Shown here in pieces: positions 1-64,000 of a DNA stretch of 64,000 nucleotides. Below the pieces are notes generated by a model. It had not been told where the DNA came from. It was given only the letters and a program-made list of their open reading frames with translations, and did not search any database. This DNA comes from Malus domestica (taxonomy: Eukaryota; Streptophyta; Magnoliopsida; Rosales; Rosaceae), in assembly GCF_042453785.1 (NCBI RefSeq), contig NC_091661.1:27767501-27831500 (forward strand), given 5' to 3'. Positions within the stretch are counted from its first letter, which is position 1; each line of letters starts with the position of its first letter. Position numbers and translations under genes: made by a program.

Positions 1-295
1 TCAACCGCTGGGGGCATCCTCCAAGACAAGCAAAATTGAAGGATGGACTCAAGTCACTCCTAAGAAATTGCACAAGAAGCATACGTCTCCTCCACAAGTC
101 TGCCAATCGGAAAGGGGGCAAAGCAGCTTTTGTCAACCTTCAAAGCAACATGAACGTGTTGAAGATGATGAAATTTTGACACATAGATCGTCCATCCCCA
201 TCACGATGCGCGATTTCTTTCCTGAGGACTTCTTCAACTACTCAGTCAAGGCTCCTTGTTATGAAGATTGCGAGGAACGACTCTCTCAGATCGCT

Positions 296-660
296 TGACG
301 AACCAATGCTCCTTGTTCGCATGAGCCTAAACTGCATGGCACAATGCTCCTTGTTCGCACGAGCCTAAACTGCACGAACCAAAGCTCTTTGTCCGCACGA
401 GCCTAAACTGTAGGACAAAAAGCTCTTTGTCCGCACGAGCCTAAACTGTAGGACACAAAGCTCCTCGCCCGCACGAGCCTAAACTGCATGACACTAAGCT
501 CCTGGTCTGCATGAGCATAAAAGGCAACACCAACTGCTCCTTGCCTGCACGAGCTGAAACTGCAACACGGCACCAAATGCTCCTTGTCTGCACGAGTTGA
601 AACTGCAAACGACACCAACACTCCTTGCCTGCATGAGTTAAAACTGCAAACGGCACAAAA
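296..660 (+). repeat. Tandem repeat field, unit about 40 bp
   Basis: About nine degenerate copies of a unit containing GCTCCTTGTTCGCACGAGCC, followed by CTAAACTGCA-type sequence, lie head to tail. They sit inside the left retrotransposon, downstream of where pol would end. The short ORFs across this stretch are repeat artefacts. Confidence 0.85.
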
Positions 661-1076
661 AGAAAATACCAAAAATATGTATGTATTTGAACTACGTTAC
701 GACTTGATCTCTTCTTTGGAGGGGTACGTAGGCAGCTCGAATGTTCAATTTTTCGAGTTCAGTCACATCAAAATAAAAAAAAAGTGTTTTATTAAATAGA
801 GTCAATTTTATTACAAAAAGGGAAAAAATGAATACATATGTTATTATGTATTTACAAAAAAAAAAAAAAAAAAAACAACAACAACAACAAAAATTATATA
901 TAATATATATTTTTATATAGCGGGCCTAGGTCCAGCTCTCACCAAACTCACCAAATGCCATGGGCCGGCCCAGTGCCATCATCATCTTCATCTCAATCGA
1001 TGCAGCCGGATACCACTGGCCCAAATCCAAGCCCAACTCTCTTCTCTCTCTCCCTCGGACAGTCTGACGAGTGAGA

Positions 1077-1961
1077 ATGGAAGGCAAATCGTACCAAAGG
1101 CTCCCGCGCGTCAAAATCTTCGAAATGCGTGACGACTACGTGAAGTTTGAGCTCCGCGACACTGACGCCAGCATCGCCAACGCACTTCGCCGCGTCATGA
1201 TTGCCGAGGTCCCCACCGTCGCCATCACCCTCGTCGAGATCGAGATTAACTCCTCCGTACTCAACGACGAGTTCATCGGCCCAACCACGACCCTTTCATC
1301 CGAGCCATCAGACTCCGTAGTTCCTGCACCCGCCACAAAGGGCAACCATAAACTCACTGATGCCATTCTCCCTGAGTCGAAAAACTGGAAAGAAGAAGGC
1401 ATAGTGACCCCGGTTAAAGATCAAGGTCACCGTGGATCTTGCTGGACATTCAGCACCACTGGAGCTCTCGAGGCAGCGTATGTGCAGACATTTGGAAAGC
1501 AAATCTCCCTCTCCGAGCAGCAGCTTGTGGATTGTGCTGGAGATTTCAACAACAACGGCTGCAATGGTGGGCTGCCATCTCAAGCATTTGAGTACATTAA
1601 GTATAACGGGGGTCTTGACACTGAGGCTGCGTATCCCTACGTTGGAGTAGACGGTGCTTGCAAATTTTCGTCGGAAAATGTTGGCGTCCATGTCGTCGAC
1701 TCTGTCAATATCACCCTGGGTGCTGAAGAAGAATTGAAGCATGCCGTTGCATTTGTGCGACCGGTCAGCGTGGCGTTTCAGGTCGTCCAAAGTTTTCGGT
1801 TCTACAAGTCGGGAGTTTACACCAGTGACACATGCGGCAGCAGTTCCATGGATGTGAACCATGCAGTTCTTGCAGTTGGGTACGGAGTGGAAGACGGCGT
1901 CCTGTTCTGGCTCGTCAAGAACTCTTGGGGACAAAGCTGGGGGGGACGTCGGGTACCGTAG
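1077..1961 (+). CDS. Chimeric intron-free ORF: RPB3 N-terminus fused to aleurain-like cysteine protease
   Basis: A 294-residue open frame joins two unrelated host genes. Residues 1 to about 67 match the N-terminus of RNA polymerase II subunit RPB3 (FELRDTD, ANALRRVMIAEVPTVAI, SSVLNDEFI). After about 20 linker residues, from KGNHKLTD on, it matches aleurain-type papain-family (C1A) protease. The oxyanion Gln (VKDQG), catalytic Cys (GSCWTF), His (DVNHAVLAVGYG) and Asn (KNSWG) are all visible. One conserved half-cystine position beside the active site (GHCGSC in relatives) reads GHRGSC, and the final part of the protease domain is absent. Native aleurain genes have many introns; none is present, so the fragment looks cDNA-derived. 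It lies inside the left retrotransposon in element-sense orientation. Neither the prodomain nor a signal peptide is present, so vacuolar sorting is not expected. Expression is unknown. Confidence 0.75.
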   Translation: MEGKSYQRLPRVKIFEMRDDYVKFELRDTDASIANALRRVMIAEVPTVAITLVEIEINSSVLNDEFIGPTTTLSSEPSDSVVPAPATKGNHKLTDAILPESKNWKEEGIVTPVKDQGHRGSCWTFSTTGALEAAYVQTFGKQISLSEQQLVDCAGDFNNNGCNGGLPSQAFEYIKYNGGLDTEAAYPYVGVDGACKFSSENVGVHVVDSVNITLGAEEELKHAVAFVRPVSVAFQVVQSFRFYKSGVYTSDTCGSSSMDVNHAVLAVGYGVEDGVLFWLVKNSWGQSWGGRRVP

Positions 1962-2640
1962 CCGCACCAGCTCAGGTCGCACGTCTTGTAGCAGTTATGG
2001 CAGGTACGAGTCGCCCACTCCTTTAAACTTCTCTGATCCCACAATCCCAGTCCAAAAAAAGGTACAGGAAGCTCTTTACCGCCGCCATTACCGCCATCGC
2101 CGCCATGCCAGAGGAAGCTTATGAGAATGGGTGTGCAGAGAGATTCGAAGCTCGATCACAACTACTTCGTGTCCGAGGTCCACGCCTGGACTGTCTCCCT
2201 GATTGATGGTTGCATCGAGAGGAGGGAAATCTTTTCTGCTGCAAGTCAGGGCACCGAGAAACCTCCATGGGTGCTTGTATCACTTGCTGTCAAATAAAAA
2301 AAAAGAATAAAAAAAAAATCTGGTTGAGGTTTAGTTGTCTTGAGCACAAGGTCTGATCTCAATAGGGCATCTTTGACAAACGATGACACGGGCAGAAGTG
2401 TCATCTGAGCATAAGCTTCGTCTGTTTCGGTGTCTGCATGCAAGATGACATGGTGAAGGAGACATATTAGCTTGGATAGTTCGGTATTTGATCATCCACA
2501 TCCTTGAAGCCGCAAACTGTTCGTTGCTGGCTCCGCCCTCGTCCTCCTCTACAAGACCTTTCCTTCTGCCCAGCAAGAATGATCAGCCACGAACTCCACA
2601 CCTCCGGCTCCAGCTCTCCGTCCGTCTTCGTCCGCTCCCT
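1962..2640 (+). other. Further captured or unidentified sequence inside the left retrotransposon
   Basis: GC-richer, gene-like sequence follows the protease fragment, but I recognise no domain in it. A block at about 2103-2155 is shared, with few differences, with 63833-63885 in the right element. Homology with the right copy becomes continuous from about 2620 rightward. Confidence 0.4.
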
Positions 2641-3130
2641 GCAAATTCCTCTACCCACCATCCTAATTTATACAGGAAAAAAAAAAAAAAAAAAAAAAAA
2701 AAAGTGGTGGTGCGTCTGGCACCACGTGAATAAAGAATGGATGGTGGAGTCTTTGGTGCTCTGGCACCATGTGAGAAAAAAATATATATATATAAAGGAG
2801 AAGGAATGGTGCCTCTGGCACCGTAGGAAAGTATAATAAAAAAAAGAAAAAAAAAAGAGAAAAAGGAAATCTGGATTGATCTGGCACCATACCTAAAAAT
2901 AAAAAAATTAAAGAATAAAAAAAGGGAAAGCAAGTAGGAAGGTGGGATGGTGCGGATTGCACCATGTAAATATACATATACATGTATGTACATAATATAT
3001 GTATGTATATAGCAAAAAAAAAATACATTGAGAGAAATAAAGTCCATTTTATTTATTTTTTTGGGAATTTTTACATAAAATTACATTCTACATACCTTAA
3101 AAAAAAAAAAAAATCAAATCAAATCAACTC
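2641..3130. repeat. Low-complexity A/T-rich stretch with long homopolymers
   Basis: Contains an A-run of about 27 bases near 2675-2703 and several shorter A and AT runs. It also has short repeated segments containing TGGCACCAT-type words. The right element has the equivalent stretch at about 61020-61520. The ORFs here are Lys/Phe-rich artefacts. Confidence 0.7.
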
Positions 3131-3150
3131 AAAATTACAAGAGGGGATCT

Positions 3151-3762
3151 TCAAGGACGATTAGGTGGCGTCTCACAACTCGGCGGAGCTCCAGGAAGAG
3201 TAGGTGCTGGAGGTTGACTGTTTGAAGCCTCAGCAGTCGGCAGAGCCTCAGAAGACGAAGGCAAATGCTGCTGGAACAAACCCACAAACCTCTGATGATC
3301 AAGTAAAATCTGACCATCAGATTCCTGCATCTGGTCAATCTTCCTCTTCATGTTTGTCGCATAGCTATGTGCGAGCTTATGCAACTGTTTGTTCTCCTGC
3401 TTGAGCCCTCTAATCTCCTGTTTGAGACTCATCACTTCAGCCGCCAATGATTCAACTTGACGGGTTCGAGCAAATAGGCGTTGGGCCATATTAGACACAG
3501 AACCTGCACACTGCACACTGAGAGCCAGAGAATCCTTAACAGCCAACTCATCAGACCGTTTGGAAAGTAATCTGTTATCTCTGGGAGTGACAAGGTTCCG
3601 GGCCACCACCGCAGCGGTCATATCATTCTTCACCACTGAATCCCCAGCGGTAAGAGGACCAGTGGGGGATATGAAAGATGGGCGCCATATGTTGTCTGGA
3701 GAAGAAGGGACTGCCTCTTCACCAAGATTCAAGTCAAAACGACGATCGGAGGGGCCAGACAT
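3151..3762 (-). CDS. Antisense additional ORF of the left retrotransposon (203 aa, coiled coil)
   Basis: The frame runs opposite to the host element. It starts with ATG at 3762 (MSGPSDRRFDLNLGEE) and ends at 3151. The N-terminal third is hydrophilic with a conserved-looking SPDNIWRPSFISP motif. Residues of about 110-155 (VESLAAEVMSLKQEI, then GLKQENKQLHKL) form a heptad-patterned coiled coil. The C-terminus is Pro/Ser-rich. The right element (60385-60996) encodes a protein of identical length with only a handful of residue differences. Antisense ORFs between pol and the 3' LTR are known in Tat-lineage elements such as Grande and Retand. The function is unknown. I chose the internal ATG because the right copy shares it and the upstream extension does not match. 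Confidence 0.65.
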   Translation of the reverse strand: MSGPSDRRFDLNLGEEAVPSSPDNIWRPSFISPTGPLTAGDSVVKNDMTAAVVARNLVTPRDNRLLSKRSDELAVKDSLALSVQCAGSVSNMAQRLFARTRQVESLAAEVMSLKQEIRGLKQENKQLHKLAHSYATNMKRKIDQMQESDGQILLDHQRFVGLFQQHLPSSSEALPTAEASNSQPPAPTLPGAPPSCETPPNRP

Positions 3763-3954
3763 TTTCAAAGGTGTTAAAGAAAGAAGAGGTCGGACAAATC
3801 GAGATCTTAGAAGTGCAAGAAGGTACAAGCAAAATTTCAAGTGTGCTTTGAAATGAACTGCCTGCCTCTATAAAAAATCAGCACTCGACGGGATTTCAGA
3901 GATCGAAGAGGCGAGCTCAGAATTCGAAGAGGCCATTCAAAAATCGAAGAGGCA

Positions 3955-4165
3955 AGCTCAGAAATCGGAGAAGCATCTTGCTTTTCCAGACGCGTCGGCA
4001 CCTGTCATATGCAAACTCAGCTTTGCGGAAATCACGGGTAATTTGTTGAAGCACCGATCCCAGATATTGAAGAGGCGCCAGTCTTTTTCAGCCGCGTCAT
4101 CACCTGTCATATGCACACTCAACTTTGCGCAAATCACAGGCAATTTGTCGAAGATTTTCGGTGAA
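3955..4165 (+). repeat. Two copies of a 102-bp repeat in the left element
   Basis: Two units share CTTTGCGGAAATCACGGG-type sequence followed by AATTTGTTGAAG and GAGGCGCCAGTC. The right element carries about four copies of the same unit (59770-60175), so copy number differs between family members. Confidence 0.7.
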
Positions 4166-5130
4166 GGAGAAAGCACGTGAAAATTTACTGTTCAATCACG
4201 CGTTAGTTGCCGACACAAGTGAAAGAATACTACCTTTACAGGTATTAAGGGACCTCCTATAACTGTCCACATTCACCTTCCATAGCAAGGCAGACACACA
4301 TAGCCTCTCTTCATCTCAAAAAAAAAAAAAATGTTTTCCCAACGAAACCTCTCGAGTCATTCAGTGTTCCTTATTCCTTGGAGCACCTCCGCAAGCCAAT
4401 GACTCCAAAGCAAAAGTATCTCATATCACCAGGGTAGAAAGCAAGAGTATCTCATATCATACACTCTCCCTATCCTTTCCTTTGTCCTTGTTCCTACCTA
4501 CAAAGACAAGGATAAAGAAAACAATATGCCGGAACTTCCACTCAAACTCGGGTAAGGAACCGACTGCTTGGAACCCTTCCCTGATTGCCTACCTAGCACT
4601 GCTCTCGAGTACTCGCCTTCCACTGCTGCTGTACTTTCAAAGAAGCTGCCACATCTACTTGGAGGACAGATAAGGCAAGTGAAAATGATACCTTGCAGCA
4701 TGTGGAGACAAGGTGCAGAAGGAACAAGCAGAGAAGAATGCGGTTTGCACGATCAACTCAGCAGAAGGAGTCCGAACTGAGGAACTCGAGAAGCTGCCAT
4801 ATCTGCCTGAAGACACAAGCAGAGAAGAATGCAGCATGCACAGTCAACTCAGCAGAAAGAGTCCGAGATGAAGAACTCGAGAATATGTCGCATCTGCCTG
4901 AGGACAGTGAACTTGTTTTGACCCTCAAATTCTTGGGTCGACTTACTAGGCGTTGTGGGCTGCACGTGCCGATTCACCACCCTTGAATCGAATCCTTAAA
5001 GATCAAGTCATCAACTGGAAGAAAAGCCCATCAATCTTGAAGATCATACTGTTGACCAAACTGCTCAGGTGTGAATTAGAAAGATTGAACAAAGAAACAG
5101 GTTGTCACCTTCACCTCGTGCCTGCTTGCC
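4166..5130 (+). other. Untranslated 3' region of the left retrotransposon
   Basis: Non-coding element sequence, collinear in inverse with about 58830-59770. It includes a poly-A run near 4318-4331 and a local duplication near 4725-4875, where two stretches containing AAGCAGAGAAGAATGC occur. No host gene is seen. Confidence 0.55.
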
Positions 5131-5590
5131 ATGTGTTCGAGTCAACCTTCAAGAATCAAGCCTCAACGGCCCTTGAAGAAGTTTCCGGCCAAATTCAAGA
5201 TCAAGCCTCGACGACCCTTGAGGAAATCACAAGTCCGATTCAAGATCAAGCGTTCACCATATTTGAATCAAATCCAGTTCAAGAACAAGCTGTGGAAAAT
5301 CAACAATTGGAGGAATCCAGAAAATCCTCCAACCCAGTTCAAGATCAAAGCTGTGGAAAGTCAACAAGCGCAACAAAATACGTGCCGATTCATCCACTAC
5401 CAAAGCCAAATATCATCTACCACATGAAGCTCCTTGTGGCCCAATTTCAACCTTCAAGATCAAGCCTCGACGACCCTTGAAGAAATTTCAAACAAAAGTT
5501 CAAGATCAAGCCTCAAACGGCCCTTGAAGAAATCTCCAGCCCAATTCAAGATCAAGCCTCGACGGCCCTTGGATCGACATCTACAGTAAG
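5131..5590 (+). repeat. Minisatellite with GATCAAGCCTCGACGGCCC motif
   Basis: Multiple imperfect units of about 30-45 bp are built on 'aagatcaagcctcgacggcc' followed by CTTGAAGAAAT. They sit just before the purine tract and LTR. Related units recur inside the LTR (about 6015-6490) and in the right element (58420-58840). Confidence 0.75.
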
Positions 5591-5658
5591 GGACTTCAAA
5601 ACGCATCTCCTACACGTGACAAGCACATGTATACGACGTACCTTGAAGTGGGGGCATT

Positions 5659-6645
5659 TGTAGACATCGAAATTTCGGTAAATAAATGTTGACCGATAAA
5701 TCAAAGTGTCAACGCTCATGTATTACATAAATTTTACACGTAGCGTGTGACTCAACGAAAATTGAAATGAGTTGGAAAAGTCATCAAATAGGACACGTGT
5801 CAACACCTGGCAGAAACGACTTATTTAATCTGGGATATTATATTCAAAATTAGGCCTTGAAAATTTCTATAAATAGAAGCCAATTTCATTCATTTCAAAA
5901 AAAACCAAAAAAATCATTAGGCAAAACTCTTGAAGCTCTGAAGCTCTGAAACTCCGAAGCTCTCAAGCATCCAGGTTCCCGAAGAATCAAGAAAGCGTTC
6001 TTCGTTCATCGTTCATCCTAAGATCAAGCCCCGACGGCCCTTTGGATCAACAATCATCCACCTTCAAGCCCAAGCCTCAACGGCCCCCTTGAAGAAAGCG
6101 TTCATCGTTCAAGATCTGTTCATCCTCAAGGATCAAGCCCCAACGGCCCCTTTGGATCGACAACATCAACAAATCCGCTCATCCGCTGTTCATCAAGCCC
6201 AAGTCCTGACGGCCCTTGAAGAAAGCGTTCATCGTTCATCACTGTTCTTCGAGATCAAGCCCAAAAGCCCTCGAAGATCCGTTCAAGCCCAAAAGCTCTC
6301 GAAGATCCGTTCGTCACTATTCTTCGAGTTCAAGCCCAAAAGCCCTCGGAAATCCGTTCATCACTGTTCTTCAAGATCAAGCCCAAAAACCCTTGAAGAT
6401 CCGTCAATCACCATTCTTCAAGATCAAGCTCAAAAGCCCTTGAAGATCCGTTCATCCTCGTTCATCCAAGATCAAGCCTCGACGGCCCTTGGATCAATCG
6501 CACATCCCACAAATCAACACCTTACGGAGATCGAATCAGAGGATCAAAACAGAGAGAGATTGTAACCTAAAATCATCAAATACAAATATTTTGTTTGTGC
6601 GCGTTGTTCTTGTCTCTTTCGTTTCAGGAATTTTCCGTGTTCACA
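5659..6645 (+). repeat. 3' LTR of the left retrotransposon
   Basis: 987 bp. It starts TGTAGACATCGAAATTTCGG and ends CCGTGTTCACA. A TATA-like CTATAAATAG lies at about 5868-5877. The R/U5 part is filled with the GATCAAGCCC minisatellite. The right element's LTR (57439-58333, inverted) is homologous but 895 bp, the difference lying mainly in repeat number. The five bases after the LTR are GCAAT; the matching duplication at the 5' end is out of view. Confidence 0.85.
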
Positions 6646-8634: not shown

Positions 8635-8643
8635 ATATACAAT

Positions 8644-14511: not shown

Positions 14512-15552
14512 TTAACTGAAGTGCCGCTTGATTAAAACCACCTTCACATAAAACCAATCATTCAAGACATTCAAGAACCTGAAGTACGAGTATCTCCATG
14601 GCCTGACGAAAATCAGACTGCCAAAAACTCCCCAAAATCCAACAAAAAAACCAAGCCCCACGCTGACGTAAAATCCCCATGTTATAGGCTCATTCTTTTC
14701 TTCTTCATCACAACACGTGTTTTGAAGTGGAGGTCCGCACAGTTGAGGATTTCCAGCATAAACAGAGGGATCAAAACTTTGGAGCCGAGTGGTTGGAATT
14801 TCGCCAATAAAGTTGTTGTAGGACAAGTACAAGACATCAAGACCATGTATCTGAGCAAGGCTGGTTGGAATTCTGCCATTTATCTGGTTTCTTGACAAAT
14901 CAAGGGCAACCAATGATTGCAACTTTCCAATCTCTACAGGCAACTCACCTGTCAATTTGTTTCTCGACAGGTTTAACGAAACTAACCCAACAAGATCCGT
15001 GATCTCACTTGGAATCTCCCCCGTTAATCTATTGCTCGAGAAATCAATTCTCGTCAGAAATCCCAAGGTGTTTTTGAATTCCAATGTCTGGTGCATATCA
15101 GCTAAAGTATCATTTATTTGGTATTGACGGGTAGGAGATGAATTTCCTTTCTGTGCCAGAACAGTCAAAGTGTTGAGGCATTTTGGTATTGTTCCAAAGA
15201 TGTTGTTCACCGACACATCCAAGTTTTGAATGTTTGTTAGACGACATAGTTCAGGCGGCATGCTTCCGTTGAAGTTATTAGAGGAAAGCACTAGGGTAGA
15301 CAAATTTTGAAGGCTAACCCCTAACCATTTTGGTATGTGTCCTGATAATTTATTGTCTCCAACATCAAGGATGACTAGGTCGCCTAAATGTGTCAAGCAT
15401 TCTGGAAGTTCTCCAGAGAGACTGTTGCTTGAGAGATTAAGGAACCATAATCTATTGTATGCTTCACACAAAATAGAAATTGACCCTGAAATTTTATTAT
15501 CAGAGAGATCCAAATATGACGGATTCTGAGTTTGAAGCCATTTTGGAAAATA

Positions 15553-16707
15553 GAAAACTTCATTTTAATCCTTAAATAAGATTGCTTTTTCAATAATACC
15601 GTATGTAAGATTAAAAACTAAAAATAGTCCTCCATGTCAGATTATAGTATTCCATGTCACATTTAATCATTTTTTAATAAATTTATTGAATTTTTAGTTT
15701 CCCTATTTACCCTTATTACTCTTTAAAACCAATTAGAGAAACAAATATATAATTAATTTTTCAAGAATGCTTAATTAACTAGATCCATAATTAACATGTT
15801 TGTTATAACATAAATCTCCATGTGTTATTCCAATCAAGGAACCCAAAAAACTCAAAAACCATGATCAAACAAAAAAAACCATAAAACTTACAAACCAAAA
15901 ATCTTGTTGTATTCGGAAGAAAGGAGAAAAAAAGGGCTTTTAGATGCCAAATTGAAGGTGAATCCAGAGATAAATGAAAAAAAAATACAAATTGAGAAAA
16001 TAGAATGTGAGATCACAACTTAATTGATCGTACCGAATTAATCGGACATACACTATATAGTACCTAACCGACAATACCGAATGGATAAGACCTAATTGAT
16101 AGTACCTAAATGATTAAGGTACATTCATATAGGTACTATGATTTAGGTGCATTCATATAGGTACCATGATTTAGGTGCATTCATATAGGTACCATGGTTT
16201 ATGTGCATTCATATAGGTACCATGGTTTATGTGCATTCATATAAGTATCATGGTTTAGGTGCATTTGACTTGGTACTATGATTTATGTGCATTTGACTAG
16301 GTTATATGATTTAAGCACATTAGGACATGGTTTAAGTGCATTCGATTATGTAAAATATATGATTTGGCTATTTATATTTCCTCTGTGCTTGTGATAATGA
16401 ATAATTTGAATTAGGTATTTGTTAATTCTTGTAACGTATCACTAATATTTTTTTGAATTATGTTTATCATTTTAGAAAGTCAAACAATAATCAATGCCAA
16501 AAAATATGGAGCAAATTAAAATCAAATATTTAATAGGGGCATTATAGAACCCAAAAAACGCATTAAATATTTCAAAACAAGAAAATATAAATTTTAATAT
16601 TTATGCTGACATGGAAATTTAGTCAAAGGACTATAATGAATATATAATCTAACATAAGGTTTTAATTGAATTTCAATCTTTATTAAGGATTAAAATGGAG
16701 AAACCCC
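15553..16707. mobile_element. Mutator-like non-autonomous transposon inserted in the RLP exon
   Basis: The 1,155-bp insert has TIRs of about 32 bp (left end ACTTCATTTTAATCCTTAAA; right end, reverse complement, TCTCCATTTTAATCCTTAAT). It is flanked by identical 10-11-bp direct repeats TTTGGAAAATA (15542-15552 and 16708-16718). The target-site length and TIR fit Mutator-type elements. The interior is AT-rich and non-coding and contains a minisatellite at 16115-16340. Confidence 0.88.
16115..16340 (+). repeat. Minisatellite inside the RLP-disrupting transposon
   Basis: About seven units of roughly 30 bp carry GTGCATTCATATAGGTACCA followed by TGGTTTA or TGATTTA. The central units are nearly identical and the outer ones more decayed. 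Confidence 0.85.
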
Positions 16708-18200
16708 TTTGGAAAATATGGACCCATCTTACATGACCCCAAAACTATAGTGTCCAATTGAAAAGGTGGAACCCAATTAGAATTGAAGCTTAAAGCCAGT
16801 GAATTGGAGGACAAATACAAAGATGTTAATCTAGAGAGATTGGAGAAGTGGCTTTCCGAAACCACACCTTCCAAAGCATTCATATCCAAATACATGTACT
16901 CCAAATTAGACATTTGCCCAATGCTTTCAGGTATTGTTCCTTTCAATTGATTTTCATAGAGATCTAATCCTTTCAACGATGAAAAGTTTGTGAGATTAGG
17001 AATTGATCCAGAAAGATGATTGTATGAGAGTCTTAAAGTCTCTAATGAGTTTTGATTTGGACATGTAGACATTAACATTTGAACCAACTTAGAAAGCCGT
17101 CCATTCAAAGTGTTGTTGGAAAGGCGCAATTCTTGCAGATTACATAACCTGGAAAAAGATTGCGGAATCCCTCCTTCAATGTGGTTATTAGAGAGAGATA
17201 GATAGACAAGAGAGCTCATGTTTCCAAAAACTTGGGGAATTAAACCAGTTAAACTGTTCGAAGAGAGGTCAAGATGAACAAGACTGGCATTGTAGTTTGA
17301 CAACCATAAGAATATTGAAGGAGAAGTGAATTGGTTGTTACTGAGATCAACATGAGCAAGAGATTTAGAAGAATTCATGTTAAAAAGAGTACTGGAATGA
17401 ATTGGAGGTGAAGAAAGACCACATTTAGCCAATGTCAAGTTTGTAAGTTTAGGGTGGTTATTAACTATTTCCAGCCAGTCAGGAACATTACGAAGATTGT
17501 TGTAACTCAGGTCCAAATATGTTAAAGAAGAAAGAAGAGGGAGCCATGAATTCAAATTTTCTACATTAGCAAAGGCATTGTAGCTGAGATCGAGAAATTG
17601 CAAGTGGGTGAGGTTTCCAACCTGACTTGGAACTCGACCACCAAAAGAAGCACGAGAGATATCGAGGTGTCTTAAATTGGAAAGATTACCAACGAAATCT
17701 GGAAGTTGGGCCCCATGAAAGTTAATTTCCGAAAGGTCCAAATATTTCAAATGCTGCAACTCAATCAGTTTAGGACTCATCATACCTTGCAAATAATATT
17801 TGATTTCCTGCGGGTCTCCTTTCTGTTGAAGTGAGTAAGCTTGATCCAAACGTTCCCTTCCAAGATTAAGTTGAGTAACATGGTTGGTGCGGTTGCTGCA
17901 GTGGACGCCAACCCATTTACAACAATCTTGCTTGTGTTCTTCTCTTCCCCATGAGGAGAGGACATTGTAGTCATCCACGAGCTTCTGTTTGATAGCAAGG
18001 AGTGCTTCTCTTTCCCTCTCAATGCACCTCATCACTCCTCTTGAAGAAATATTATTGGATCCAAGGGCAGGGGAAGAGTTGACACATTGCAGTAGAGTCA
18101 GCACCGCAATTAAAGCATGAAAGAGTTTCTTCAAGCGCCGTCACCCTCCATCTTAATTCAACTAAATCAATGGAGATACAGTTGAAGAATGAAGAAGAAA

Positions 18201-18774
18201 AACTGTGGATTCAGGATTTGATTTACGAGCAAAAGGAAAGCTGCAAGTGTAGTTCAAATGGTAAGCTCACATATACAATGATTCTAGACAGCATGATTGT
18301 TCTTTTTTTTGGGTCAAAAAGACGGAGGCAGATTGTCTGCCATCTCACTTCCCGTGAGCTCTGCTCTTCTGTTTGTGTGGTAACAGTTAAATTACGTCAA
18401 CATTTTATATTACTATTATTTTTTTTTTATTATCTTTATTAAAAAAATAATATAAAATATTAACGTAATTTAACCGTGATCACACAAAACAGTGGATTCA
18501 GAATTTGATTTACGAGCAAAAGGAAAGCTGCAAGTGTAGTTCAAATGGTAAGCTCACATATACAATGATTCTAGACAGCATGATTGTCCTTTTTTTTGGG
18601 TCAAAAAGACGGAGGCAGATTGTCTTCCATCTCACTTCCTTGAGTTCTTGTGCTCTTCTGTTTGTGTGGTAATAGTTAAGTTACGTCAACATTTTATATT
18701 ATTATTCTTTTTTATCTTATTATCTTTATTAAAAAAATAATATAAAATATTGACGTAATTTAACCGTGACCATA
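18201..18774. repeat. Direct tandem duplication (unit 287 bp) containing a hairpin MITE
   Basis: 18201-18487 and 18488-18774 are near-identical, both starting GTGGATTCAG followed by ATTTGATTTACGAGC. Each unit includes a MITE related to 8427-8634 (core TTACGTCAACATTTTATATT and its inverse). The second MITE is complete to about 18826, with ends AGACGGAGGCAGA and CTACCTCCAC. It lies just upstream of the RLP gene. Confidence 0.85.
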
Positions 18775-18970
18775 CAAAATAGGAAGACATAAGAAGTGGG
18801 AAGACAGAGACTCTACCTCCACAAAGACAACAATAATTGATAAAGTGAAGACATCTTGATGCACCGATCTTGGTAAGTCATTACTCAATTTACTTCCCCA
18901 CCAAATTTATTGCTTTTTCTAGTTCGTCCATGTATGGAAACTACTAATTGAAAGATGCCGTATATAATTA

Positions 18971-20435: not shown

Positions 20436-20494
20436 TGGGCTGGACCTTGGTTGTTACTTTAACCCATTTACAATTGGCCCAATCCTCCTATAAA
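20436..20494 (+). promoter_or_regulatory. SF1 core promoter: site II-like motifs and TATA box
   Basis: TGGGCT (20436-20441) and GGCCCA (about 20476-20481) are site II-type motifs typical of plant housekeeping genes. TATAAA lies at 20489-20494, 65 bp before the ATG. Confidence 0.55.
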
Positions 20495-20558
20495 TTGTCA
20501 GAGGCGCGTCGTCCCGCTCGCTTTTAACACATCTGTAAGCTTCTCCAATCTCAAATCC

Positions 20559-34063: not shown

Positions 34064-34501
34064 CTCTAACAAAGCTATATTTTAATCTACTTAAATCTAC
34101 GGGTAGGGAACTCGAACTCGGATAAATCTACCTGTAGGGAATTCGAACTCGAATAAATAGTGATCAGACGTACTTGGCCTTTCAAGTGCATCCCATAAAA
34201 AGAAAATTAACCTCAACTATTCGGTAATTACCGTTTCGGTTGCAATTGTTACCAAAAGATTCAGGTGGCAATGCAAAAATTTAAGATCTCTGAAAAAAAG
34301 GTGAACTGATAATATTACAAAAAAACATACCTAATATCCATAAATCCCCACATTGCAGGCAACCTGCTAACTCCAATGTACCAAGCACTGGAAGTTCATA
34401 ACAAAACGTAGTTTGAAACACAGAATGCCTAACAATGGGGTGGAAAAATTCATCTGCAGGTCATCCAATGGAGATATGCTGGTGATGTCGTCGGATTAGG
34501 G

Positions 34502-36532: not shown

Positions 36533-36555
36533 TGAAATTCTTTATGGTTTTTTTT

Positions 36556-37351: not shown

Positions 37352-37505
37352 GGGAACTTTAACAAAAATCTCCCGTTATTGTTCATTTTAATGAAAAATC
37401 ATATTTTTATACTAAAAAGTCAATCCTGGTATCATTCACTTTACCCTTTATTTTGTCATTATCGTTAAAACTCAAAATTTTCAAGTCATTTTCATTAGTT
37501 TTCCT
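37352..37505. mobile_element. 154-bp Mutator-type MITE, copy 1
   Basis: It starts GGGAACTTTAACAAAAATC and ends CATTAGTTTTCCT. Flanking 9-mers are TTAACTACA and TTAACTATA. It has exactly the same length as the copy at 46029-46182 and shares, for example, ACTAAAAAGTCAA and TCACTTTACCCTTTATTTT. Confidence 0.85.
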
Positions 37506-38611
37506 TTAACTATATTCATTATACCACAACAAAGATACATTATTAGAAACATATGAACGAAATACAGTGGATTGTCCTCTAAACATATTAAAGCAAGCAA
37601 GTGATGAATTTTTTTGGTAGTTAAGATATTTCTGTTCAATTTTTTGGGTTTAAATCCTCTCTTTTTCTCTCTCATTTCCCACTTTCAGGGCCAGATTCAT
37701 TCATTGACCCTCGTAGTTCCGGGACCATCGGAAGCCTAAAGAAGCACCTATGAGGACCTCTGAGAACCATCCAACGGTCTGTGCAAGTGGTGAAGAGAGA
37801 AGATCATCATGGTTGTTCAACATAAGCTTTGAACCAAGAAGAAAGATCTATTTCAGACAAAGATGAACACAAAGAAAACCATCATGGCTCTTTTATTCTT
37901 GGAAGAAAAACTCTCTCAATTTCCAACGTGACCAACACCCCCCCCCCCCCTCTCCTATTATTTTAATTGTTGTCAAATTAGGTTGTGCAACTTCATATTT
38001 TATTTAATAAAGAAGGGGTGTATTACTCAACCAATATTTTTATACCATATATGTTTGACACCTTTTATTTATTTATTTTTAAATTCACTATAAATTCAAA
38101 CAGTCTTTCAAAAATATTTTGTAAGTACTGCGAACTCATAACTGGAACTTTCATATCATAACATCCAATTCACTAAAATACTAAAACAAAAATTCTAATA
38201 TTTTTATGTGTTATATGTTAAATAATAAACACAAATTCTCAATACAATTTTTTAGAGTAAATAGACACTTATTTATATCATATATAATGAATTTACTTAA
38301 ATCCGTCTAGTCCACCTAACCCTGTCTAGGTGTATAGACGCTAGCTTCAGCCTGCCACCCAACTAACGTCTAGCGTACCACTCAATATTAAAATCCTGAA
38401 TCTGCCACTGCCCTCCACTAATGTAAATTAATATAACACTCCCCTTTTTTTCAAAATATATCTATATATATACACACGCGAACGAAAGTAGACTGTGTGA
38501 AAACAAAGGGGAATATAAACACATTTTGGCCATATACACATTTTACTATGAATGCATCCAAAAATAGATATTTTCTTCCTTTGTTTTAAAATTTTGCAGT
38601 GAAGCCACTTA
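37506..38611. other. AT-rich spacer with a C-homopolymer
   Basis: Contains a run of about 13 C at 37939-37951 and a decayed piece related to the CTAGGCG MITE at about 38290-38400. No gene is seen. Confidence 0.45.
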
Positions 38612-46028: not shown

Positions 46029-46182
46029 GGGAGTTTTAACGAAAAGCTCACGGTACTGTTCACTTTAACGAAAAACCACATTTTTACACTAAAAAGTCAA
46101 ATCTGGTACTATTCACTTTACCCTTTATTTTATCTTTATCATTAAAACTCAAAGTTTTCAAGCCATTTTCATTATTTTTCCT
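46029..46182. mobile_element. 154-bp Mutator-type MITE, copy 2
   Basis: It starts GGGAGTTTTAACGAAAAGCT and ends CATTATTTTTCCT. It is flanked by perfect 9-bp repeats TATTTTTTT (46020-46028 and 46183-46191). Confidence 0.87.
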
Positions 46183-46379
46183 TATTTTTTTCTGCACTTA
46201 TTTGAGACGTTTTGTGTTAGCCATTTTTTATATCTCTTCAATATGTAGGAGGTTATATTTACTACTCATATTATATATAACATTAATATGTGAATCTACG
46301 TGACATCGATATGACGTTAGTAAAAGCAAACGTTGGGCTCCCAAAGTGCTAAGAATAACAATTAATATAAGAGTTTACC

Positions 46380-51512: not shown

Positions 51513-51674
51513 ATGATGATGATGATGAAAAACCCTCTGCACCCAGCAGCACTCCTGAAAAGCACTTCTCTCATGAGCAGAAGCAGCCATCAAGACCTCC
51601 CTTCCCTTAAATTTCCCAACAATCTCTACTTCTCACTCTCACCCAGCACCTTCCCCACACCCCCAAAACCATGA
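51513..51674 (+). promoter_or_regulatory. 53-codon uORF in the TDR leader, stop overlapping the main ATG
   Basis: It starts at a run of five consecutive in-frame ATG codons (51513-51527) and stays open for 53 codons (MMMMMKNPLHPA at the start, PTPPKP at the end). It ends at TGA 51672-51674. The main CDS starts at ATG 51671, giving an ATGA stop-start overlap. If the leader contains it, translation of the kinase would need leaky scanning past five ATGs or termination-reinitiation. Presence in the mature mRNA is not shown by the sequence alone. Confidence 0.6.
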
Positions 51675-54600
51675 AAGTACCTTCCTTTTCCTCCTCCTCC
51701 TTCCCTCTCTCTCTCCTCTTCTTCTTCTCTCTCCAAACCTCCATAACTCTCTGCTCTTCTTCCTCTAATTCTTCTGTGTCCTTCCAGCTCATTGCTCTGC
51801 TCTCCCTCAAATCCTCCCTCAAAGACCCTCTCTCCTCCTTCCACGATTGGGTTTCCCCCAATTCCCACCCAAACGGCGGCGTCTCCGGTTGGTGTTCGTG
51901 GTCCGGCGTCAAATGCCAACCCGACACCTCCCAAGTCGTTTCCCTCGACCTCTCCCGCCGCAACCTCTCCGGCCAAATCCCACCACAAATCCGCCACCTT
52001 TCTTCCCTAATCCACCTCAATTTGAGCGGCAACGCCTTCAACGGCCCTCTCCAGCCCGCCATGTTCGAGCTCGACAACCTCAGGATCCTCGACATCAGCC
52101 ACAACGACTTCAAGTCGGATTTCCCGCCCGGGATTTCGAAGCTCAGGTTTTTAAGAGTCTTTACCGCTTACAGTAACAGCTTCACTGGCCCATTGCCTCA
52201 AGAATTCGTCAAGCTCCGCTACCTCGAGCAGCTCAACCTCGGTGGAAGTTACTTCGATGGTAAAATCCCAGAAGGGTACGGAACATTCCCCAAGTTAAAA
52301 TTGCTCTACCTCGCCGGAAATGCACTCAACGGTTCAATTCCGCCGCAATTGGGTTCCTTATCGGAGCTGACTCGGATGGAGATCGGGTACAACGAGTATT
52401 CAGGTGGGTTTCCTATAGAACTCGGAATGCTGTCAAATCTCACGTACTTGGACGTCTCCAACGCCTTTCTCTCCGGCGCTCTCCCGCCGGAGCTTGGCAA
52501 CTTAACCATGCTTGACACATTGCTGCTCTTCAAGAACCGATTTTCAGGCTTTATCCCAGCAACTATCGGCCTCTTACAGAGACTGAAGACACTCGACTTG
52601 TCGGATAATCAGCTTTCCGGCTCAATCCCGCCGGGAATTGGTACATTGAAAGAGCTGACCATGATAAGCTTGATGAACAACTTTCTCGTCGGAGAAATCC
52701 CGGAAAAAATCGGAGAGCTGCCCAACTTAGAAAACCTCCTCCTCTGGAACAATTCGCTGACGGGTCTCCTTCCCCAGGGCTTAGGATTCAGCGGGAAGCT
52801 CCTGCGAGTCGATGTCTCCTCCAATTCTCTCACCGGCCCGATCCCGCCAAATCTCTGCGACGGCAACAAGCTCCAAAAGCTCATACTTTTCTCCAACCGG
52901 TTCACCGACCCTCTTCCCAAAACCTTAGCAAACTGCACTTCTCTGTTCAGACTCCGAATCCAGAACAACCAAATCAACGGGTCGGTTCCGACGGGTTTCG
53001 GGTTATTACCCAATCTAACCTACGTCGATTTCAGCGGCAACAATTTCACAGGCACGATCCCGGAAGATCTCGGCAATGCCGAAGCTCTCAGTTACTTGAA
53101 CATTTCGCTGAACCCATTGCACTCAGTCCTTCCGTCAAACATCTGGCGCGCACCAAATCTGCAGATCTTCTCTGCTAGCTCCGGCCACCTCACAGGAAAA
53201 ATCCCCGACTTCATCGGCTGCCAAAGCCTGTACAAGATCGAACTTCAACGTAACGACTTTAACGGCTCGATCCCATGGGACATCGGGCACTGCGAGAAGC
53301 TTCTCAGCTTGAATCTAAGCCGCAATTCTCTCACCGGCATTATCCCATGGGAAATCTCCGCTTTGCCCTCCATCACCGACCTCGACCTCTCCCGGAACTT
53401 TCTCTCCGGCACGATCCCGTCCAACTTCGAGAACTGTAGCACGTTGGAGAGCTTCAACGTTTCGTTTAATTTGTTGACCGGTCCGATCCCCGCGTCCGGT
53501 TCCATTTTCCCGAATCTCCATCCGTCGTCGTTTTTGGGGAATAAAGGATTATGTGGCGGCGTTTTGGGGAAGCCCTGTGACACCTTGTCGGCCGGAGCCA
53601 TGGAGGTTCGCGGCCACGAGCAGCCGAAGAAGACGGCGGGCGCGATAGTGTGGATCATGGCGGCTGCTTTCGGTATCGGGCTTTTTGTTCTCATCGCTGG
53701 CACCCGCTGCTTCCGCGCGAATTACAGCCGCCGGATGGACGAGAGTCAGCAGATTGGACCGTGGAAATTAACCGCTTTCCAGCGGTTAAATTTCACGGCG
53801 GATGATGTGTTGGAGTGTTTGGAGATGAGCGATAAGATTATAGGGATGGGGTCCACGGGGACGGTTTATAGGGCGGAAATGCCAGGTGGCGAGTTCATAG
53901 CCGTTAAGAAGCTGTGGGGAAAACAGAAGGAGAACAATAGTGATCTGATCCGACGGCGGAGAGGGGTCCTGGCTGAGGTGGACGTGTTGGGGAACGTGAG
54001 GCACAGGAATATAGTAAGGTTGTTAGGGTGCTGCTGCAACAGAGACATCACTATGCTGCTCTACGAGTACATGCCCAACGGGAATTTGGATGATTTGTTG
54101 CATGGCAAAAACAAGGCGCAGAATTTGGGTGCGGATTGGGTCACGAGGTACAAGATCGCCCTCGGCGTGGCGCAGGGGATTTGTTACCTGCACCACGACT
54201 GTAACCCCGTGATCGTGCACCGTGATCTTAAGCCGAGTAATATCTTGTTGGATAGTGAGATGGAGGCCAGAGTGGCGGATTTTGGGGTGGCTAAGTTGAT
54301 CCAAAGCGATGAGTCCATGTCCGTCATTGCCGGCTCCTATGGCTACATTGCTCCAGGTGCGTTGATTCCTCAATCTCCATTTCTCATATTGTCTTAATTT
54401 ATGAACGATCATCATGAGTAAGGATATTATGCATTTATAGAAATGATTCAAAATTTTTAACTGATTTTTATTTGTGCATATTATTCGTATAATGTTTGAC
54501 CTCTAGCATAAGTTGGTGAAATAATGCTTGGTTTTGTTGAAAATTCGTTTTGTTGGGTGACGAAATCTAAATTACCGAATGTGTTAGGGTTAATCTACCA

Positions 54601-57438: not shown

Positions 57439-58333
57439 TGTGAACACGGAAAATTCCTGAAACGAATGAGACAAGAACAACGTGCACAAACAAATATTTG
57501 TATTTGATGATTTTGGGTTACAATCTCTCTCTATTTTGATCCTCTGATTCGATCTCCGTAAGGTGTTGATTGGTGGATGTTTTGTTGATCCAAGGGCCGT
57601 TGATGCTTGATCTTGGATGAATTGTTGGAAGTTTCTTCAAAGGGCCGTGGGCTTGATCTTTGAAGGTGGATTTGAGCGGATCTTCAAGGAGCCGTTGGGA
57701 CTTGATCTTGAAGAACAGTGATGAACGGATCTTCAAGGGCTTTTGGGCTTGATCTTGAAGAACAGTGATGAACGGATCTTCAAGGGCTTTTGGGCTTAAT
57801 CTTGAAGAACGGTTGGATGTGTGTGGATTTGTCGACGTTGTTGATCCAAAGGGCCGTTGGGGCTTGATCTTGGATGAACGGATGATGAACGATGGTGCTT
57901 TCTTCAAGGGCCGTCGGGGCTTGATCTTGAATTGGTGGATGATTGTTGATCCAAAGGGCCGTTGGGGCTTGATCTTGGATGAACGATGAACGAAGAACGA
58001 AGAGAGCTTTCTTGATTCTTCGGGAACCTGGATGCTTGAAAGCTTCGGAGTTTCAGAGCTTCAGAGCTTCAAGGTGTAATATCAATTCGTCCCCTTAAAT
58101 GAATGAAATGGGCTTGTATTTATAGAATTTTCCAAGGCCTAACTTTGAATATAATATTCCAGATGAAATAAGTTGTTTCTGCCAGGTGTTGACACGTGTC
58201 CTATTTGATGACTTTTCCAACTCATTTCAATTTTCGTTGAGTCACACGCTACGTGTAAAATTTATGTAATACATGAGCGTTGAAACTTTGATTTATCGGT
58301 CAACATTTATTTACCGAAATTTCGATGTCTACA
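57439..58333 (-). repeat. 3' LTR of the right retrotransposon
   Basis: 895 bp. On -, it starts TGTAGACATCGAAATTTCGG and ends CGTGTTCACA, with a TATA-like TATAAATACAAG (about 58112-58123). The internal GATCAAGCCC-type minisatellite differs in unit number and order from the left LTR. The five bases beyond the end on the plus strand are AGAAT (57434-57438). Confidence 0.85.
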
Positions 58334-59769: not shown

Positions 59770-60175
59770 ATCAGCAATCTTCGACAAATTGTCCGTAATT
59801 TCCGCCAGGCTGAGTGTGCATGTGACAGGTGTTGACGTGGCTGAAGAAGACTGGCGCTTCTTCAATAACTGGGATCGGCGCTTCGACAAATTACCCGTGA
59901 TTTCCGCAAAGCTGAGTTTGCGTGTGATGGGTGTTGACGAGGTTGAAAAAGACTGGCGCCTCTTCGATATCTGGGATCGGCGCTTCGACAAATTGCCCGT
60001 GATTTTCGCAAAGCTGAGTTTGCGCGTGACGGGTGCTGACGAGGCTGAAAAAGACTGGCGCCTCTTCGATACCTGGGATTGGCGCTTTAACAAATTGCCC
60101 GTAATTTCCGCAAAGCTGAGTTTGCGTGTGTCGGGTGCTAACGCGTCTGGAAAAGCAAGATGCTTCTCCGATTTC
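59770..60175 (-). repeat. Four copies of a 102-bp repeat, open in frame on both strands
   Basis: CGCTTCGACAAATT-type words recur at 59879, 59981 and 60083, giving a period of 102 bp, with a further partial unit on the left. The left element has only two units. The period is a multiple of three, and frames of 140 aa (+) and 151 aa (-, with repeats around KLSFAEITGNLSKRRSQ) stay open across it. Confidence 0.85.
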
Positions 60176-60384: not shown

Positions 60385-60996
60385 ATGTCTGGCCCCTCCG
60401 ATCGTCGTTTTGACTTGAATCTTGGTGAAGAGGCAGTCCCTTCTTCTCCAGACAACATATGGCGCCCATCCTTCATATCCCCCACTGGTCCTCTTACCGT
60501 TGGGGATTCAGTGGTGAAGAATGATATGACCGCTGCGGTGGTGGCCCGGAACCTTGTCACTCCCAGAGATAACAGACTACTTTCCAAACGGTCTGATGAG
60601 TTGGCTGTTAAGGATTCTCTGGCTCTCAGTGTGCAGTGTGCAGGTTCTGTGTCTAATATGGCCCAACGCCTATTTGCTCGAACCCGTCAAGTTGAATCAT
60701 TGGCGGCTGAAGTGATGAGTCTCAAACAGGAGATTAGAGGGCTCAAGCAGGAGAACAAACAGTTGCATAAGCTCGCACATAGCTATGCGACAAACATGAA
60801 GAGGAAGATTGACCAGATGCAGGAATCTGATGGTCAGATTTTACTTGATCATCAGAGGTTTGTGGGTTTGTTCCAGCAGCATTTGCCTTCGTCTTCTGAG
60901 GCTCTGCCGACTGCTGAGGCTTCAAACAGTCAACCTCCGGCACCTACTCTTCCTGGAGCTCCGCCGAGTTGTGAGGCGCCACGTAATCGTCCTTGA
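60385..60996 (+). CDS. Antisense additional ORF of the right retrotransposon (203 aa, coiled coil)
   Basis: Counterpart of 3151-3762, with the same start (MSGPSDRRFDLNLGEE), the same length, the same SPDNIWRPSFISP motif and the same coiled coil (VESLAAEVMSLKQEI, NKQLHKL). It runs antisense to its element. A TATA-like TTTATAGAGG lies about 115 bp before the ATG at about 60267, and a T-rich tract follows the stop. Function is unknown. Confidence 0.65.
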   Translation: MSGPSDRRFDLNLGEEAVPSSPDNIWRPSFISPTGPLTVGDSVVKNDMTAAVVARNLVTPRDNRLLSKRSDELAVKDSLALSVQCAGSVSNMAQRLFARTRQVESLAAEVMSLKQEIRGLKQENKQLHKLAHSYATNMKRKIDQMQESDGQILLDHQRFVGLFQQHLPSSSEALPTAEASNSQPPAPTLPGAPPSCEAPRNRP

Positions 60997-61009
60997 AGAT
61001 CCCCTCTTG

Positions 61010-61560
61010 TAATTTTGAGTTGATTTGATTTTTTTTTTTTTTTTAAGGTATGTACACATTTATGTAAAATTTCCTAGAAAAATAAAATGGACTTCTATTT
61101 CTCTTAATGCATTTTTTTTTTCATGCGGTGCCATGTATATATATATAATATATACCCACACAATGTACATACACACGCACACCCACCTTTTTCCTTTTGC
61201 TTTTCGGTGGTGTTCACATCCACCATCATAACTTAAGTGATGGCCACTGCTTGTCTGACGCAACTCCACAAATCATATTTTTATATATAACAAATATATA
61301 CACACATGTCACCACACCTCTTTGCCGTCCACTATCCCCAAATTTTCCTTTATGTTTTATATATATATATATATTTTTTCTTTTTCTGGTGCCTGATGCC
61401 CCATCTTTTTTTCCACATGGTGGTGCTGATCCACCAAGATTTTTTTATATTTTCTTTTCTTTTCTTTTGCCAAAAGCATCCCTTATTTTTTTTTTTTTTT
61501 TAATATATTTTTTTTTTCTGTATAAATTCGGGTGATGGGTAGAGGAATTTGCAGGGAGCG
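61010..61560. repeat. Low-complexity A/T-rich stretch of the right element
   Basis: T-homopolymers and TA runs, the counterpart of 2620-3130. The reading frames are Phe/Leu-rich artefacts. Confidence 0.7.
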
Positions 61561-63214
61561 GAGCAAGGAGGCCGAGAAGACGGTGCTTCGAGCTTCACGA
61601 CCGACTAGTCGTTTGACGGCGGTCTTTGAAGTTGTTGGCAGCTGCGAGGCAAGAGACGGAGGTGACCTTGATGTCGGATCCAGCTAGAATCCAGAGCACA
61701 GCCACTGAGCCCAACCACAGAGCACAGCCACTGCACACCCGTACTGCCACCGAGCATAGCCACCGTACACCCATCGCACTGCCAGCATCTTCACTGCACT
61801 ACCATCTATACTGCCTGTTGAACTTGCTGCACTGCCTTGTCGTCCTTGCACTGTTTCCTTGCTGCACAGCATCGCCGTCGCACCGTCGCAGCATAGCCTT
61901 TGCCATTGCACTGTCCACTGCATCTCCACTGCACCATCCCCATTGCTTCTGCACCGCACACTGTTTTGCATCTTCACTGCGTTGTTTCCTTGCTGCACAG
62001 CCTTGTCGTCCTCACTGCACAAAACTGCACTGCCCTATCTCGCTTGCTGCTGCATCACCACTGCAAGGGGAGAGACAGATTGACAGTGCTTCCGAAGCTT
62101 CTTCGCCACCGTCAACAGCGCCAATCTTCGCTCTCTTAGTTCAGCAAAAGCTTCAGGATCATTTGCGAGTCCAATGACCGAGTCATGAAGATGGAAAGCA
62201 TGGATCCTGCAGCACCAACCCAAGTCATAACCTCAAGCCGAGTCAGAGACAACAATCTAAGTTACAACCTTCAAGTCCAGTGACTGAACTTGAAGATGGA
62301 AAGCATGGATCCTGCAGTACCAACCCAAGTCACAACCTCAGTCTTGCACTTCTTCCTTCTTTCGACTAGCTTTGGGAGACCAACCGAGAGAAGCAGCAGC
62401 AGTGATAACACCAGCTACAACAGCAGAATTCCGGTACTTGTCAGTCGATACCTTGGCAGTTGACACTCCAGAGGAAGAGGCATTTGGTTTGGCATCAGAG
62501 ACTGAGCCTCCTGAGCTTCCAGCTGATAGATCTGCTCGTTCAGAAAGCGGCAACTGTTAGTCGTTGATCCTGATCTACCTGGCATCCCAAAAGCATCTTC
62601 AATTGGTGGAGCTCAAGAGGTATGGAACCAAGAAATCCTAAATCAGGGGCCAACGTTCCACAAAGATGAAAATATCTCTTAAATTCAGGATGACCACTTT
62701 TCCATCTGAGCACTCCACCACGAACCAGGGAAAGTGATCATCTTCTCCGCGATTGTTGGGAAGGAGGAAGAGTATAGAGAATTTGGTGTAGGCGGGGTAT
62801 TCGAGCAGCTCGTGGACGCTGGTGGCGGGATCAATGGCGGTGGATCCGTTGATGGTGGCTTGGTTTGTGAGGAGGCTGAACTATTTGCGGAGCTCCGACG
62901 TCATGTGGAGATCTTCGCTGCCGGTGTTGAAGGCACCTGGGAAGATGCCGCGACTTTCTTCGTCCACTTGGGGCTTTTAAACGGCGCCGGATCGATTGGA
63001 ATAGGGGACGTGGTTGGTAGCGTCTGGAGGGAAAATGAACAGTCGAAGTTGGCGTCGGCGCCGAGGCCGAAGGCGGCGCGCGCGAGGTTAGTGAGGCGCA
63101 GCGTTTCCTGGGCATTGGGTTGTTCTTCTCCGTTGCATCTCTGAAGAGGATTTCAGTGGATTGTGAGGAAATGGGAGTGTGAGCAACGGTGGTGTAGATC
63201 AACGGTTGAGTCAC
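61561..63214 (-). other. Captured or unidentified sequence in the right element
   Basis: GC-richer, CTGCAC-rich sequence (61680-62070) followed by gene-like pieces. On -, around 62950 to 62700, a stretch reads STAIDPATSVHELLEYPAYT-like residues, which looks like host protein but which I cannot name. Around 62553-62338 (-) lies a Ser/Ala-rich frame (GSSGGSVSDAKPNASSSG) also not recognised. The 136-aa ORF at 62734-63144 (+) is probably a shadow. Confidence 0.35.
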
Positions 63215-63510
63215 CAGCTGTACCGTGCAAAACTTGCCCTGAAGGCTGGCCGGTTGCTGCGGCTGACTTCAATATTGAAGCATGACTTTGATCTAAAATC
63301 TGGCCCACATTATCACCAAATCTCTGCTTCATAGATGCATCATCCATAGAATCTCTCTGAAGAGGAAGTTTTAATCTTTCCTCATACATCTTTGTAGCCA
63401 TGGCATTTGCTGTTCCAGGATTTTGTCGCATGAGAGGATCATTTCCAACAAGCCCATTTGTAGGTCCATTGTGGAGATGTGCCCCATCTCTTATCTGATG
63501 CGGCTGTGGC
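63215..63510 (-). pseudogene. Captured fragment of a LEUNIG-type corepressor gene
   Basis: On -, the frame reads [61 protein letters not shown] and [20 protein letters not shown], matching the region of LEUNIG between the LUFS domain and the Q-rich part. It is intron-free and only about 95 residues long. LEUNIG itself is a Groucho/TUP1-type transcriptional corepressor in flower development. The LUFS and WD40 domains are absent, so no such activity is expected. It lies in element-sense orientation. Confidence 0.85.
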
Positions 63511-63514
63511 GGTT

Positions 63515-63885
63515 TGACGGATGAGTGCATGCCGGCATCCGTAGCGACGGTGAAGGAGAGGCACCAGGTCCGGTGGATTCGCGGGAGATCGGTCCTGGGT
63601 TGGGCCGAGAGCATGATGATTTTCTGGAGGGTGTCGGCGGCGATGAACCGGAGATGGCGTTGTTCTGGAGCCCGATCGTGAGGAGCCGGGTGAGATTGTC
63701 TGGAAAGGGTCCCCGGAGGTTGTTGTCGGCGAGGTCGAGAAGCTTGAGCTTGGTGCAGTTGACGAGAGGAGAAACGGCTTGGTGCAGTTGACGAGAGGAG
63801 AAACGGTGCCGTTGAGGCGGTTGTTGTGGAGGTCGAGCTTCGAATCTCTCTGCACACCCATTTTCAAAAGCTTATCTGGCATGGA
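63515..63885 (-). pseudogene. Captured fragment of an LRR receptor-like kinase gene
   Basis: On -, after DSKL the sequence reads [18 protein letters not shown], and a neighbouring stretch encodes an LRR-like [13 protein letters not shown], like the N-terminal LRRs of PXC1-type receptor kinases. There is no kinase part. It adjoins the LEUNIG fragment and shares about 50 bp at its 5' side with 2103-2155 in the left element. The source-gene assignment is moderate. Confidence 0.6.
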
Positions 63886-64000
63886 CTCTGTGAAATGGAG
63901 GCAGGCTTTCTTGGAGGACCCAGGAGGGCTAGGATTTGGGCAGGGGGCCGGCCTTGGGCTTTCCCTTGATAAATGACAAAGAGTGAGAGTGGGCCAAGGG

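Follow-up and report, generated by a model that had tools for sequence, protein, structure and literature searches.

Two facing LTR retrotransposon copies in apple carrying different host-gene fragments upstream of a shared 3' part

Introduction

The 64,000-nucleotide stretch of Malus domestica DNA analysed here (contig NC_091661.1, positions 27,767,501 to 27,831,500; hereafter the window) contains the 3' halves of two inward-facing copies of one long terminal repeat (LTR) retrotransposon type, designated L (left copy, plus strand) and R (right copy, minus strand). Upstream of a shared 3' part, each copy carries short fragments of host genes (shards), and the two sets differ, with an RPB3-aleurain fusion frame in L and a series of shards of unrelated genes in R. 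The reading favoured here, held with moderate confidence, is that the two copies are LTR retrotransposons, full or partial, in which the spacer between pol and a long antisense open reading frame (ORF) gained shards of host transcripts via template switching.

Two facing copies of one element type

The gene content of the window is that of a plant. Self-comparison of the window revealed two inverted copies of the element, one at each end. The inverted similarity extends over 2631-6645 in L and 61562-57439 in R (local alignment; BLAST E 0.0, far above chance), and the original prediction that two facing copies match from the LTR past the antisense ORF is thereby borne out. Both copies share their LTRs and polypurine tracts as well as spacer sequence and an antisense ORF of 203 codons. 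The 3' LTRs, located by BLAST and sequence inspection, occupy 5659-6645 in L (plus strand, 987 bp) and 57439-58333 in R (minus strand, 895 bp); both start with TGTAGACATC and end with GTTCACA, and GAAGTGGGGGCATT stands directly before them. Inspection placed the polypurine tract region of L at 5645-5658 (plus strand). LTR ends of the form TG...CA adjoining a polypurine tract, the hallmark of an LTR retrotransposon, are thus found in L and R alike. The bases just past the LTR end are GCAAT in one copy and ATTCT in the other, indicating two separate insertions. BLAST detected no third copy of the LTR or of the internal part in the window, and the first 30 bases of the LTR have no exact match in viral contigs. 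In bins of 250 bases, identity between L and R is about 99% over the antisense ORF and drops to 65-75% in the spacer beside the cargo; the other full bins lie at 83-97%.

Host-gene shards in the left and right copies

The left cargo begins with an RPB3 shard (1077-1277, plus strand) comprising residues 1-67 from the start codon, which matches PDB entry 7eu0_C, subunit 3 of polymerases II, IV and V, with an E-value of 4e-29. In frame with it follows a shard of an aleurain/cathepsin-H-type protease (1326-1943, plus strand), whose 206 unbroken codons match Pfam family PF00112 (E 1.1e-66) and pro-cathepsin H (E 1.2e-70); the prediction of RPB3 and aleurain-like sequence in this copy was confirmed for both genes. 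The alignment with cathepsin H contains one single-residue gap. The Cys, His and Asn that carry out catalysis in proteases of this type are retained, the Cys three residues ahead of the catalytic Cys is replaced by Arg, and the frame ends about 10 residues after the KNSWG motif. Owing to the loss of this conserved Cys and the early end of the frame, the RPB3-aleurain product is unlikely to be a working enzyme. A plasmid search with the fusion frame returned two records, both of them bacterial C1 peptidases. The grapevine ALP subfamily consists of one gene with seven exons (PMC8556938), so that an unspliced copy would be expected to show introns, and the unbroken aleurain run would be best explained by spliced RNA. 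The earlier claim that the host fragments are intron-free would therefore seem well supported for aleurain, by analogy with the grapevine exon number, and not for the other shards.

In R, the order along the element is a relic shared with L (described below), leucine-rich repeat (LRR), PIN, DUF1677-like, LEUNIG-like, pieces without assigned identity, P2 and Lhcb, all on the minus strand except where stated. The LRR shard (63647-63778) contains leucine-rich repeats (Pfam LRR_1, 21.2 bits, cut-off 20.6), and a repeat scan together with inspection located a perfect 29-bp tandem duplication inside it (63748-63806); no kinase part belonging to this shard was found in R. It overlaps by 7 bases with a shard of a PIN auxin carrier (63606-63653), which is identified by an exact run of 16 residues (16/16 identical to PIN3) and not by the E-value of the PDB search (0.18). 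The next shard (63499-63585) lies on the plus strand, antisense to the element, and is probably DUF1677-related (Pfam E 5.9e-5, 23.9 bits, cut-off 25). The following frame of 94 codons (63210-63491), presumed to be LEUNIG-like, has no match in the PDB or Pfam searches. Further downstream, 62341-62520 encodes the C-terminal part of complex I subunit P2 (At2g27730-type; PDB search E 1.9e-15) in 60 codons and runs to its natural stop, TGA at 62340-62338. Next to it, 62168-62340 contains a 68-bp duplication (62340-62274 and 62235-62168, 90% identity), and 62122-62175 is a probable Lhcb shard with 11 of 12 residues in GLANDPxAFAEL, a weak match with an E-value of 0.0036 for the whole frame and 0.97 for this segment alone. 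The LRR, PIN, P2 and probable Lhcb shards fall inside about 1.7 kb. The sense pieces 62641-62880 and 62543-62737 gave no convincing PDB match, 62904-63152 gave none in Pfam, the only search made with it, and the cargo of R contains no A run of seven or more. Judged from sequence similarity, the right cargo comprises three well supported and two probable genes, with a presumed LEUNIG in addition. LEUNIG and an LRR kinase had been predicted for this copy; the leucine-rich repeats stand, the kinase part and a search match for LEUNIG are lacking, and PIN, P2 and probably Lhcb and DUF1677 come in addition.

The common edge and the shared relic

The 3' edge of the cargo is sharp, since the local alignment begins exactly at 2631/61562, and the shared part opens with 27 identical bases (2631-2657 in L, plus strand; 61536-61562 in R, minus strand). 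Upstream of this edge the copies had been predicted to diverge completely, which does not hold: a relic is shared between 2103-2165 in L (plus strand, 63 bp by the longer alignment) and 63820-63884 in R (minus strand), with a core of 92% identity over 53 columns (BLAST, E 1e-15). It is the only significant BLAST match between the two cargos upstream of the edge, and it likely reflects common ancestry of part of the spacer. A second shared stretch, 16 bp near the left end of the cargo, was considered and rejected, as 3 and 4 of 500 shuffles equalled its score under two scorings.

The right cargo is enclosed between two shared stretches, the relic and the edge, implying that it lies inside the element; alternatively, the relic itself may be a host piece that was captured twice. 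The window continues for 116 bases past the relic in R. The shards of R are situated downstream of the relic, and the RPB3-aleurain frame of L is situated upstream of it, outside the relic-to-edge interval. In L, this interval holds 465-475 bp of other sequence (2166-2630, plus strand) with an A-rich run at 2292-2318 and no assigned identity; the sense piece 2037-2294 yielded no convincing PDB match. Hence, of the prediction that both cargos occupy the same position, the common 3' edge stands and a common placement relative to the relic does not. Upstream of the left cargo, a 98-codon open frame (2-295, plus strand), presumably element sequence 3' of pol, has no Pfam family near its cut-off and is followed by a tandem array (304-660, plus strand; 38-bp units in about 7 copies, then 43-bp units in about 3) that is presumed to be element spacer. 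Provided that this flank (1-660) belongs to the element, foreign DNA would have entered the spacer at two places or more. The spacer would then be one interval with turnover, not a single-nucleotide hot spot.

Proposed template switching and its alternatives

In the favoured mechanism, host messenger RNAs (mRNAs) packaged together with the element RNA would offer the reverse transcriptase additional templates. While making the minus strand, this enzyme would leave the element RNA within the spacer, copy part of a host mRNA, hop again at short matches and go back to the element RNA, and 5' element sequence would be expected beyond the cargo. The literature on plant LTR elements describes both abnormal template switching and transduction as routes of this kind (PMC13317346). 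Template switching is preferred here as it would explain the uninterrupted aleurain shard, the presence of several unrelated genes, the 7-base junction overlap and the 29-bp duplication. The antisense DUF1677-like shard would call for an extra step, either plus-strand switching or end-joining of complementary DNA (cDNA) pieces. End-joining of DNA or cDNA pieces accounts equally well for this antisense shard and for the short shards, and a mixture of both processes is possible.

Several observations weigh against capture through template switching. The 64-kb window showed neither a gag-pol frame nor a primer site or 5' LTR; the 5' border of R lies beyond it, as the right cargo is cut off by the end of the window at 64000, and the 5' element flank of L has no second copy in the window for comparison. 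An mRNA origin, argued from the grapevine gene, would be well supported for the aleurain shard only. The DUF1677-like shard runs antisense to the element, which contradicts the original prediction of element-sense fragments in both copies. Pfam was the only search applied to both strands; among the stretches of 45 codons or more listed for the cargo intervals, it covered all 31 in sense and 34 of the 35 in antisense, the exception being 61672-61818 (plus strand). Two frames at the edge, 777-917 (plus) and 695-925 (minus), stood outside the search. At E < 1e-3 it returned three sense shards, all above cut-off, vs one antisense shard just below it (p 0.31). Among all shards identified by a tool, 6 of 7 are in sense (p 0.06), a count biased by the PDB searches, from which the PIN, P2 and Lhcb matches come and which used nine sense queries and the antisense ORF. 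Frames of 25-44 codons, searched in R only, gave no Pfam family in 20 cases (10 antisense, 10 sense). The idea of an all-element-sense cargo was dropped after the two-strand Pfam test. As there is no significant strand bias, the orientation of the shards neither proves nor excludes an RNA route.

Patching at the DNA level, in which double-strand breaks in integrated elements are filled by end-joining with short genomic or cDNA copies in either orientation, is regarded as rather unlikely. It is in keeping with the shortness of the shards (16-94 codons, aleurain excepted), the junction overlap, the 29-bp tandem duplication and the one antisense shard; it fits poorly with 206 unbroken aleurain codons from a type of gene that has seven exons in grapevine, and the edge and relic common to two insertions suggest that retrotransposition passed on part of the spacer. 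This shared relic and the identical edge could also point to a single old capture in a common ancestor, followed by deletion or recombination between subfamilies and with no repeated capture, and the uneven identity along the shared part suggests such recombination. However, no identified shard is common to L and R, and the relic is the sole significant match above the edge, so that a single capture is judged a little more doubtful still than patching.

Nesting of a Pack-MULE, CACTA or Helitron with its load of gene pieces inside the elements is considered very improbable. Such elements are well known as carriers of gene pieces (PMC13317346), but a simple scan of 661-2720 and 61401-64000, which covered both sides of the left cargo and the right cargo only within the window, found neither inverted termini nor a hairpin with a CTRR end, and the uninterrupted aleurain shard and the different cargo on the same side of an identical edge also argue against them. 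L1-like retroposition occurs in dicots (PMC4838847), and the A-rich run of L would suit separate L1-like retrocopies of host genes inserted into already integrated elements; the tiny shards of different genes standing side by side in R without A-tails between them make this the most far-fetched of the explanations considered.

Capture of host transcripts by template switching, with differing cargo in the two copies, therefore remains the best reading of what had been predicted as repeated mRNA capture at a hot spot. The hot spot itself is not shown, because there are two copies only, with one shared border and a relic that makes partly common ancestry likely. A bolder proposal, that the spacer is a standing landing interval for host transcripts in which single copies accumulate spliced shards of many unrelated genes, one after another, is put forward only tentatively and as rather unlikely. 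If true, the element would be a natural exon shuffler that genome surveys overlooked, the individual shards being too short to score.

The antisense ORF and the tandem arrays

The antisense ORF encodes a coiled-coil-like product of 203 codons plus stop in L (3151-3762, minus strand) and has the same length in R (60385-60996, plus strand). The two ORFs differ at 6 of 612 bases and in 3 residues; with three nonsynonymous vs three synonymous substitutions (p 0.15), purifying selection is not proven. The 6/612 differences compare with 28/498 in a hand-picked stretch about 0.6 kb away (4381-4880; p 1e-5), and the excess identity of the ORF over both flanks suggests recombination between element subfamilies, or constraint. 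The Pfam matches listed for the ORF are all weak and below cut-off, with many coiled-coil families among them, and a search of five frames against NCBIfam gave weak matches far under cut-off for the antisense ORF only. No relatives were confirmed in viral contigs or prokaryote genome contigs, and none were found in phages. A 102-bp repeat is present in two copies of 75% identity in L (3946-4149, plus strand) and as a tandem array of 3.7 copies in R (59779-60155, minus strand), so that array copy number is unequal between the two.

Antisense ORFs and variable arrays between pol and the 3' LTR are already described for Retand elements (PMC11963269), a Tat lineage in which the antisense ORF contains TRP28 (PF04195) in 97% of clusters (PMC11963269). 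Like these Ty3/gypsy elements (PMC11963269), L and R have tandem arrays of varying copy number along with an antisense ORF in the sequence before the 3' LTR; pol lies outside the window. Unlike Retand (PMC11963269), no TRP28 was found in the antisense ORF of L or R: it is not among the Pfam families reported at E-values of up to 10 for L or for R, a search in which HMMER filters drop most weak matches. Furthermore, sense ORFs of this region in the survey representatives are reported to have no known domain (PMC11963269), whereas L has a C1-protease frame. Membership of L and R in the Retand (Tat) lineage is thus not shown.

Other features between the two copies

The sequence between the two elements contains further genes and repeats. 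On the minus strand, frames of 485 and 350 codons for LRR receptor-like proteins, separated by a minisatellite-bearing stretch, possibly represent one broken gene (14512-18140). A direct repeat of about 290 bp with 94% identity (18199-18779) and an uninterrupted 823-codon frame, whose product resembles splicing factor 1 and has SF1-HH, KH and RRM domains (20463-22934), follow. A 3.28-kb tandem duplication of 98% identity (29988-36555) contains a minus-strand gene start (MMFGGRSMGG...) twice. Two direct repeats of 155 bp with 86% identity, located 8.7 kb apart (37352-37506 and 46029-46183), are perhaps a small dispersed repeat, and 51611-54397 contains an LRR receptor-like kinase gene with a 928-codon frame reaching into the kinase domain.

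Comparison with known gene-carrying elements

Gene capture by plant LTR elements is established, and many shards of unrelated genes in one element are unusual. In the open-access literature, no paper describing such a mosaic was found, and the available text of a pear LTR survey (PMC4668562) makes no mention of 'captured' or 'gene fragments'. In maize B73, 425 LTR elements with gene fragments, from at least 189 captures, were reported, and under the conditions of that survey none was found to carry fragments from more than one standard nuclear gene (PMC2774510). L and R resemble this set in holding gene fragments within LTR elements, and differ from it in that each holds more than one gene. 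LTR-captured genes number 672 in rice and 1,343 in sorghum according to the abstract of PMC3726574, the Results of which word the rice number differently. Host genes moved by LTR elements are a feature shared with those genomes; the genes counted there are annotated captured genes, whereas the short mosaic shards of L and R would tend to be missed by such screens.

If mosaics of this kind are common and overlooked, most shards being shorter than 100 codons, LTR elements would shuffle exons at a higher rate than is currently estimated, and the relic-to-edge interval provides a concrete place to count captures. Speculatively, small RNAs directed at many donor genes simultaneously could also arise from the shards. 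Among the closest known systems is Bs1 of maize, an LTR element with three host genes and the example named in a review (PMC13317346). As in Bs1, pieces of host genes have been joined within an LTR element to form a new frame; unlike in Bs1, two copies with different cargo stand here beside a long antisense ORF. L and R thus extend a known kind of gene-carrying LTR element and are no new kind.

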